Shown here: positions 49,042-50,936 of the stretch, in pieces
Layout: every line of letters begins with the position of its first letter
How positions within the stretch are numbered: the stretch's first letter is position 1
NCBI RefSeq assembly: GCF_001864935.2
Contig: NZ_CP126267.1
Location: forward strand, 2,604,001 to 2,668,000
DNA length: 64,000 bases
Source of the DNA: Curtobacterium sp. MCBA15_012
GTDB lineage: Bacteria > Actinomycetota > Actinomycetes > Actinomycetales > Microbacteriaceae
Reading direction: 5' to 3'
Translations under genes and position numbers: made by a program
The notes under the pieces: generated by a model
What the model was told of the DNA's origin: nothing
What the model saw: the letters and a program-made list of their open reading frames with translations, nothing else
The model's database searches: none

Positions 49042-49698
49042 CTAGAAGCGCTCGCCCGTCGGGTCCTGCGCGGTCCGGTCGACGAGGTCCTCGCCGCCGT
49101 CCGGCTCGCCCTCCCAGTCCACCAGGCGCCACCCGTCGGCGGTCGACCCCTCGAGCTCCACGATCCCGGTGTTCTCGAGGTGCCGCTTCGTGCCGAAGTC
49201 GTCGGGGGTGTTCTGCGCGACCGCGCACGCCCAGGTCCGGATGGCCGCGCCGTGGCTGACCACCGCCGCGACGGCCGCCCCGGACGCCTCGACCCGGGCG
49301 ATCGCGTCGTCGTAGCGGGCGAAGAACTCCTCGCCGCTCTCCGCACCGGGCATGCGGCTCGCGCGGTCGCCGGCCGACCAGCCGTGCACGGTCGAGATGT
49401 ACATCTGGACCGACACCCGGTCCGACTTGCCCTGCGTGTCGCCGGCCTCGATCTCGCGGAGGCCGTCGAGCACGACCGGCTCGATCCCGAGCGCGGCGGC
49501 GAGCGGCGCGGCCGTGTGCTGCGTCCGCACCATCGACGAGACGAACAGGCGCTCGATGCCCCGGTCGGCCAGCGCCACCGGCAGCGCGGCGGCCTGCCGC
49601 TGCCCGAGCTCGGTCAGGCCGGGGCCGGGGACCTCGGCGTCGAGGATGCCGTGCACGTTCGCGGGGGTCTGGCCGTGGCGGATGAGCAGGAGTCGCAT
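49042..49698 (-). CDS. Histidine phosphatase (phosphoglycerate-mutase-like)
   Basis: This 218-aa protein starts MRLLLIRHGQTPANVHGILD, with the RHG catalytic motif (His 8). VSSMVRTQHTAAPLA gives the second Arg, GLREIEAGDTQGKS the Glu, and AVVSHGAAIRTW the second catalytic His (about residue 148). It removes phosphate from a small metabolite or phosphoprotein; the substrate is undefined. It converges with glpD across a strong hairpin. Confidence 0.93.
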   Translation of the reverse strand: MRLLLIRHGQTPANVHGILDAEVPGPGLTELGQRQAAALPVALADRGIERLFVSSMVRTQHTAAPLAAALGIEPVVLDGLREIEAGDTQGKSDRVSVQMYISTVHGWSAGDRASRMPGAESGEEFFARYDDAIARVEASGAAVAAVVSHGAAIRTWACAVAQNTPDDFGTKRHLENTGIVELEGSTADGWRLVDWEGEPDGGEDLVDRTAQDPTGERF

Positions 49699-49726: not shown

Positions 49727-49849
49727 TCAGCCCTGCCGCGCCTTCCACCGGGGATCACGCTTGTTGATGACGTACACGCGTCCGCGGCGACGGACGACCT
49801 GCGAGCCGGGGACCTGCTTGAGTGCCTTGAGCGAGTTGCGGACCTTCAC
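49727..49849 (-). CDS. rpmJ: Ribosomal protein bL36, cysteine-free (type B) form
   Basis: This 40-aa protein, [20 protein letters not shown] at its start, ends in [18 protein letters not shown]. It carries no Cys, so it lacks the zinc ribbon of ordinary L36; it is the zinc-independent paralogue usually made in zinc starvation so that the zinc-binding copy can be replaced. The start is GTG with AGGAGG 6 bases upstream. A Zur-box-like palindrome lies 29 bp upstream, shared with the divergent CobW-C-domain gene. Confidence 0.95.
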
Positions 49850-49877
49850 GGGTTCCTCCTGGTCGATGCCCTCTTGT

Positions 49878-49892
49878 TGAGAACGGTTGTCA
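49878..49892. promoter_or_regulatory. Zur-box-like palindrome
   Basis: TGAGAACGGTTGTCA is a 7-1-7 inverted repeat with six of seven pairs matching, the layout of Fur/Zur-family boxes. It sits between the divergent starts of rpmJ and the CobW-C-domain gene and overlaps the likely promoter (TTGTTG at 49874, TAGGGT at 49895). Confidence 0.7.
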
Positions 49893-49907
49893 TGTAGGGT
49901 ACCGGAC

Positions 49908-50936
49908 ATGCGTCCCGCCGCCATCACCCTCGTCTCCGCGCTGCACGACGTCGACGCCGACCAGGTCGCGTCCCGGATCGCCCTCGGACACCGCATGCAC
50001 GTGTCGGGCACCGCGTTCGCCGCGGCGCGCGCGATCGCCGCCCGCGCCGACCAGCTCGACCGGGTGTGCGGGCCCGACGCCGACCACGGGCTCGTCGTCA
50101 GCACGAGCCCAGGAACCGACGTCCGCGCGGTCGGCATGCTCCTGGCGAACGCCGCCCGCTCCGAGACCGGTGACGACCGCGTGCTGCGGCACGTCGTCGC
50201 GGTCCTGCGGGCCGACGAGGTCGCGCACCTGCTGTGGTCCGACGTCGACGACGCCTTCGTCGCCGCCGACCGGGTCACCACGGTGGTCGAGTACGCCACG
50301 GTCGTCGTGCTGGACCGCATGGAGCCGCTCTCGGGTCGGCGCCGACGGGCACTCGTCGCACTCCTGCACCGCCTCGCACCGCACGCGGCGATCGTCGCCC
50401 GGCACACCGTCCGGTCGGCCGCCGACCTCCCCGCATCGAACGGCGGAGCGGCGCGGCTGCTGGCCTCCGGCGCCGGGTGGATGCGCGCGCTGTCGACCGA
50501 CGCCGGGCGGACCGACAGCGGGCGTGCGCCGTGCGACGACCTGGTGACGCTCCGCTACCGGGAACCGCTGCCCTTCCACCCCGGACGACTCGCGACGGTC
50601 ATCGCCGAGGACCTCGCCGCCGGGGTGAACGGACGGGTGCTGCGGTCGCGGGGGTTCTTCCGTCTGGCGTCCCGACCGGACCACGTCGGGTCGTGGTCGA
50701 GCTTCGGGGCGATGCTCGCCCTCGACCCGACCGCGAACCCGTCGTGGGACGCGGACGCCCCGATCGGGCAGGCGATCTGGTTCGTCGGCGAACGGCTCGA
50801 CGTGCACGGCATCGAGCGCGCGCTCGACACCGCGCTGCTGACCCCGGCCGAACTGCTCGCCGGCCCGGCGCTGTGGCGCTCGTGGGCGGACCCGTTCCCG
50901 GCCTGGCCGGCCGTGGACGCGCAGCAGCCGGAGTGA
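49908..50936 (+). CDS. CobW C-terminal-domain protein with degenerate GTPase domain
   Basis: This is 342 aa. The C-terminal region [45 protein letters not shown] (about residues 235-285) is a CobW_C domain, as in COG0523 zinc chaperone GTPases. The N-terminal 160 residues keep the strand/helix order (ITLVSALHD...; [20 protein letters not shown]), but the GxxGxGKT P-loop after the first strand is replaced by ALHDVDADQ, the NKxD motif reads LDRMEP, and no CxCC zinc motif is seen. It therefore probably does not bind GTP in the usual way. It is divergent from rpmJ over a Zur-type box, so it is probably zinc-repressed. Confidence 0.85.

Follow-up and report, generated by a model that had tools for sequence, protein, structure and literature searches.

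A cysteine-free bL36 gene and a putative CobW_C pseudo-GTPase gene flank a candidate Zur operator in Curtobacterium and other Microbacteriaceae

The window analyzed here is the whole 64,000-nucleotide stretch of Curtobacterium sp. MCBA15_012 DNA (contig NZ_CP126267.1, positions 2,604,001 to 2,668,000). In this window, rpmJ2, encoding a type-B ribosomal protein bL36, and a gene encoding a protein with a CobW_C domain are transcribed divergently from either side of a palindromic box (Table 1). The box is separated from the start codon of bL36 by 28 bases and from that of the CobW_C gene by 18. The CobW_C gene was taken to start at ATG 49911, in a reading frame open from TTG 49887, and contains no stop codon. 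A promoter scan of the intergenic spacer identified no sigma-70-type site. A histidine phosphatase gene (PF00300; window 49042-49698) sits just past the bL36 gene and has the same orientation; nothing was found to tie it to the bL36/CobW_C system.

Table 1. Features of the bL36/CobW_C locus (window coordinates).
Feature	Position	Strand	Basis
rpmJ2, cysteine-free type-B bL36, 40 aa, GTG start at 49849	49727..49849	-	NF002021, 78.3 bits; PF00444
Zur-type operator (candidate), TGAGAACGGTTGTCA, between the two divergent start codons	49878..49892	none	pattern scans and conservation
CobW_C pseudo-GTPase (putative), 341 aa	49911..50936	+	PF07683, motif alignment, model, dN/dS
Residues 11-18, ALHDVDAD, at the position of the P-loop GxxGxGK[ST] of intact relatives	49941..49964	+	alignment
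Residues 135-138, DRME, at the position of NKxD in intact relatives	50313..50324	+	alignment
CobW_C domain, residues 213-309	50547..50837	+	PF07683; conservation stronger than in the N-terminal part

An earlier note on this DNA, made from the sequence, had described the bL36 as cysteine-free, and this was borne out: none of its 40 residues is a cysteine, and its NF002021 score exceeds the NCBIfam cut-off for type B L36 (70 bits). The Curtobacterium genome also encodes a zinc form of bL36 with three cysteines (C1:3365565-3365678), whereas S14, L31 and L33 gave one match each, all cysteine-free. Among the ribosomal proteins checked (S14, L31, L33 and bL36), bL36 thus appears to be the only zinc-switchable one, which would place the pair at the one switch found; from the single, cysteine-free copies of S14, L33 and L31, it seems that several zinc ribosomal proteins have been permanently abandoned in this genome.

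The two arms of TGAGAACGGTTGTCA agree at six of seven positions around a single central base, and the box is therefore a near-perfect palindrome. The exact pattern TGANAACNNTTNTCA, which was shaped on the window site itself, matched only positions 49878-49892 of the window and none of 100 shuffled sequences. With up to two mismatches, the same single site was recovered, but 23 of the 100 shuffles gave as many matches, and the loose pattern alone therefore proves nothing. The exact sequence TGANAACNRTTNTCA occurs in two places only in the complete 3.58-Mb genome: the bL36/CobW_C spacer and a site directly before znuA (PF01297, 175.7 bits), in a cluster also holding a Fur-family gene (PF01475). 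Two further sequences, read in an assumed frame, gave no match that would establish znuB or znuC. At up to two mismatches, there were 21 forward and 21 reverse matches genome-wide, versus five and three for the reversed control pattern, and the loose pattern picks up chance sites here too. We do not claim as Zur sites the three one-mismatch sites (L004, L005 and L006), which have no clear zinc gene attached, or a two-mismatch site (L017) before a general solute-binding protein. The box agrees with the Mycobacterium smegmatis Zur motif in the form printed in PMC7174638. Because the one further exact match genome-wide stands in front of znuA and clusters with a Fur-family gene, the box at 49878-49892 is a credible candidate Zur operator. 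Genes for L28 (one cysteine) and for L33 and S14 (no cysteine) lie about 1.3 kb downstream from the Fur-family gene of the znu cluster (C1:524110-524824).

The CobW_C domain was the sole Pfam domain over cut-off in the product of the divergent gene (44.4 bits, cut-off 22). The CobW_C assignment made in the earlier note was thus upheld by profile search, whereas no PF02492 match was listed for this protein in the Pfam search. No other CobW_C match was obtained in the genome, in which two weak PF02492 matches (28.5 and 21 bits) lie elsewhere. Alignment with intact relatives confirmed that the P-loop, NKxD and CxCC motifs are all absent, as had been noted from the sequence, and the protein contains no cysteines. 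In the predicted model (mean pLDDT 89.5), the strands and helices follow a G-domain-like order, and the predicted fold is YjiA-like, with the two-domain CobW_C architecture; a structural match to the COG0523 G domain, that of YjiA, was therefore found at the level of the model. A direct PDB sequence search yielded no relative (one hit, E 0.48) and a PHROGs search no match. The public names of these proteins, “GTP-binding protein” or “cobalamin biosynthesis protein CobW”, are not supported by their sequence.

Selection was assessed by the Nei-Gojobori method on 21 pairs of seven Curtobacterium genes. The median dN/dS was 0.24 overall (range 0.15-0.39), 0.29 for residues 4-198 and 0.17 for residues 208-327. 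The former P-loop (residues 9-25) was the least constrained part tested, with a value of 0.63 (range 0.25-1.46) resting on only 17 codons. These ratios indicate that the CobW_C gene is under purifying selection, strongest in the C-terminal domain, and, together with the predicted YjiA-like fold, they argue for a selected pseudo-GTPase. The proposal that a former COG0523 GTPase has become a pseudo-GTPase while keeping its G-domain fold is thus supported by sequence, model and dN/dS.

When 397 Microbacteriaceae genomes were searched with a profile, 109 gave matches, spanning 28 of 76 genera. From these matches, 122 loci from 105 genomes were taken, holding 123 CobW_C frames above 80 bits. A divergent L36 lay no more than 450 bases from the frame start in 101 of the 123 frames (101 genomes, 25 genera), and all 101 of these L36 proteins were cysteine-free; the architecture is therefore kept beside rpmJ across Microbacteriaceae. 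The box, sought within 150 bases of the L36 start, was present at all 101 paired loci, with no mismatch in 53, one in 42 and two in six, whereas control stretches inside genes had a best match with at least three mismatches in 118 of 123 cases. Four of the five exceptions (L124, L128, L131 and L132) picked up the genuine box, as the stop-to-stop frame starts upstream from it, and the fifth (L058) was a two-mismatch chance match. The palindrome and Zur-type control put forward in the earlier note are thus supported by the box shared with znuA and by its presence at every L36-adjacent locus. The 22 unpaired frames included 13 Clavibacter-type copies (L026-L038) with a box but no adjacent L36, indicating that adjacency is not obligatory; 12 of these 13 genomes carry a second copy paired with L36 (L087-L099). 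Another unpaired locus (L100) had the box only, one (L120) had L36 on the same strand, two (L143 and L146) were short frames, two (L145 and L147) were P-loop proteins of a different kind, one was the second frame of L070, and no L36 was found within the stretch read for L116 and L118. In Curtobacterium, all 10 genomes with the gene had the pair, and the six listed without the gene all lacked bL36B, holding only the zinc-type L36.

Motif expressions (G....GK[ST], C.CC and [NT]K.D) were applied to the 123 frames. Only six had a P-loop: L059, L066 and L074, from one genus, the first frame of L070, and L145 and L147, neither of which is beside L36. Thus, 97 of the 101 L36-adjacent frames lacked the P-loop, and CxCC was found in none of the 123. 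The pseudo-GTPase state had been presented as a feature of a single locus; the loss is real, but that scope was too narrow, as most of the Microbacteriaceae relatives fetched share it, and the state had already been reported by Haas et al. in 2009 (PMC2770081) for the mycobacterial homologue Rv0106, now Mrf. Four weaker matches included two (L262 and L263) with all three motifs, and canonical COG0523 members therefore exist in Microbacteriaceae; of the other two, L261 had a P-loop and TKxD, and L264 none of the motifs. Like L261, L145 and L147 combine a P-loop with a TKxD-type motif and no CxCC; both group with intact COG0523 proteins. The first frame of L070 has a P-loop, GLAGAGKT, within an otherwise P-loop-less window clade, and has lost NKxD; this locus also has another CobW_C frame, without a P-loop, about 1.2 kb downstream from the first and 2.3 kb away from the L36 gene.

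Named genomes, overlapping partly with the 397-genome set, were also scanned and gave 136 confirmed loci, of which the best 80 are considered here. Among these 80, all 14 Cryobacterium loci had the P-loop and NKxD without CxCC, beside a cysteine-free L36; all 25 Curtobacterium loci lacked the three motifs, also beside a cysteine-free L36; all 11 Streptomyces loci had the three motifs and no L36; and the remaining 30, from further Microbacteriaceae, had none of the motifs, with 23 of them beside L36. P0097, a protein with a Cryobacterium-like motif state, was 40% identical to the window protein over residues 119-332, and the ESSG stretch of intact proteins is replaced by EVHPS in P0097 and by EIHPS in the Cryobacterium protein P0099. 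With both nucleotide motifs retained in the Cryobacterium version of this locus, nucleotide may still be relevant to some members of the family.

We compared these proteins with Mrf by surveying the class with model NF047431 for Mrf (cut-off 375 bits). Thirty of 394 genomes passed, and the 30 loci kept, one per genome, all lacked the P-loop and CxCC and contained CxxC. The window protein scored 50.4 bits, far under the cut-off, and lies on a separate branch outside the Mrf-like clade; an assignment to Mrf proper is thereby ruled out. For phylogenetic analysis, 194 frames above 60 bits were reduced to 137 at a 78% identity limit; the first tree had 108 rows, after removal of 16 of the 24 Mrf rows, five frames that were short or broken and eight further rows, and the second, built without the three motif regions, had 63. 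The motif and pairing counts are independent of these reduced row sets. In the 63-row tree, 41 rows, consisting of the window clade, Cryobacterium and a second subfamily, were separated from the Mrf-like and intact proteins (support 99/97); all were from Microbacteriaceae except L230. The Microbacteriaceae proteins L145 and L147 lay on the other side, with the intact proteins. The second subfamily (most of L102-L141), deeply separate and P-loop-less, is mostly divergent from a cysteine-free L36; most of its rows come from Microbacteriaceae and the others from further families of the same order.

The P-loop state changes at least three times on the 63-row tree. In topology tests on clades chosen after sight of the first tree, the grouping of all P-loop-less rows was rejected (p-AU 1.2e-6), including with L070 added (p 0.0097). 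A single window clade from which L070, with its P-loop, is excluded was not rejected (p-AU 0.2), so repeated loss inside the window clade is not supported. In profile comparison, the window clade was nearer to the intact proteins (E 8.9e-47) than to Mrf (E 2.5e-28). On these trees, a single P-loop loss common to the window lineage and the Mrf-like proteins is rejected, and the P-loop would have been lost at least twice if the intact state is taken as ancestral, an assumption that goes beyond what the tree proves. Three Mrf-like, probably streptomycete proteins (L218-L220) lack the P-loop yet keep CACC, an intermediate motif state. The pseudo-GTPase idea itself is not new. New are the placement of most Microbacteriaceae proteins in a lineage of their own, linked to bL36, the rejection of one P-loop loss in common with Mrf-like proteins, and the absence of even the CxxC of Mrf. 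Among the titles and abstracts retrieved, no paper treated the Microbacteriaceae bL36/pseudo-GTPase pair.

The reading that we favor, to which we give about an even chance of being right, is that the CobW_C protein is a Zur-repressed, nucleotide-independent adaptor, most likely acting on ribosomes. Zinc-loaded Zur would bind 49878-49892 in vivo and repress both divergent genes; as zinc falls, the cysteine-free bL36 would replace the zinc-binding form and the CobW_C protein would be made alongside. The latter, descended from a COG0523 metal-chaperone GTPase, would have lost its nucleotide and CxCC metal sites, probably binds no nucleotide, and may use the conserved CobW_C domain at its C-terminus to act, most likely on ribosomes carrying the alternative bL36, in a way comparable to Mrf. 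We infer that it has a partner there: it could help a hibernation factor to load, or assist the assembly or protection of bL36B ribosomes. This adaptor reading draws on Mrf, a P-loop-less homologue reported to recruit the hibernation factor Mpy to C- ribosomes (2026 review, PMC13418864), on the box shared with znuA, on the pairing in 25 genera and the joint absence from six Curtobacterium genomes, on bL36 being the only zinc-switchable ribosomal protein among those checked, on the status of the protein as sole CobW_C match in a genome with one hibernation-factor gene (PF02482), and on the YjiA-like model with its low dN/dS, overall and in the C-terminal domain. Counting against it are the score below the Mrf cut-off, the lack of CxxC, the position outside the Mrf-like clade, and the lack of any match in 288 of the 397 Microbacteriaceae genomes, the system being far from universal; the Clavibacter-type copies without a neighboring bL36 and the P-loop and NKxD kept by Cryobacterium also weigh against it, and co-regulation is no proof of a ribosomal partner.

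The same control could serve a Zur-regulated protein whose task lies outside the ribosome and which does no more than share a divergent operator with bL36B. The Clavibacter-type copies, under a Zur-type box without an adjoining bL36, favor such a task, but the pairing is maintained in 25 genera, and gene and bL36B are jointly absent from all six Curtobacterium genomes tested without the gene; we consider it unlikely, although it deserves more weight than the other alternatives. The earlier note had offered a zinc carrier or a scaffold. COG0523 descent and Zur-type control would suit a nucleotide-free zinc carrier or store, in which zinc hand-over was kept via other ligands, such as a C-terminal histidine tail, and 52 of 86 close relatives do have HH or HxH within their last 14 residues. 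However, the window protein ends in AVDAQQPE, with no histidine tail, and neither the CxCC, absent from all 123 frames, nor the CxxC of Mrf is present; with the known ligands gone, the carrier option is not supported and we judge it improbable, whereas the scaffold option remains.

It could also be argued that “dead” is the wrong word and that nucleotide is still bound through a non-canonical loop, given the G-domain-like fold of the model and the Cryobacterium orthologues retaining P-loop and NKxD. The P-loop and the base-recognition motif are nevertheless gone from the window protein, and the 17 codons of the former P-loop are the least constrained part tested, which makes this very improbable. 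Decay of the gene might be suspected from the lost motifs, from its absence from six of the 16 Curtobacterium genomes listed, and from the one stop codon spanned by nine of the listed Microbacteriaceae matches. It is rejected on the dN/dS of the 21 pairs, and the CobW_C motifs are near-invariant, the operator is kept and the window gene is free of stop codons, leaving decay with scarcely any chance.

Returning to the adaptor, a broader proposal, advanced tentatively and with less confidence, is that Zur-controlled COG0523 proteins have lost the GTPase repeatedly: Mrf-like proteins and those of Microbacteriaceae would have done so independently, in both cases next to a zinc-free ribosomal paralogue, since their zinc-starvation role would be exerted on ribosomes via CobW_C without GTP or zinc. 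The Microbacteriaceae system would then be reduced to bL36 and one pseudo-GTPase, with Cryobacterium keeping a nucleotide-binding stage of the same orthologue. That the pair is kept behind one zinc-starvation switch in many genera suggests a ribosome-related job requiring neither GTP nor zinc, and the locus bears on the role of COG0523 proteins beside zinc-free ribosomal paralogues.

A close comparison is with the Cryobacterium orthologues, which resemble the window locus in having a divergent bL36B, a Zur-type box (one or two mismatches) and no CxCC, but differ from the window protein in keeping the P-loop and NKxD. One syntenic locus therefore exists with a nucleotide site, in Cryobacterium, and without one, in the other paired genera (except for the P-loop of L070); both forms have the same kind of operator and the same partner, separating nucleotide-dependent function from the rest. 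The COG0523 GTPases of the ZigA/YciC/YjiA type, among which Zur-regulated members have been described (PMC2770081), have the same two-domain fold with CobW_C, but the window protein lacks their P-loop, NKxD and CxCC. Mrf (MSMEG_6069/Rv0106; NF047431) is similar in its COG0523 descent, its lack of a P-loop and its adjoining zinc-free ribosomal paralogue, and is under Zur control in mycobacteria, the window pair having a Zur-type box recognized from its sequence. According to the review cited above (PMC13418864), zinc governs both the transcription and the stability of Mrf, which holds a CXXC motif. This CxxC, reported to tie the stability of Mrf to zinc, is missing from the window protein, and the ribosomal neighbor described for Mrf is L28, whereas that of the window protein is bL36.
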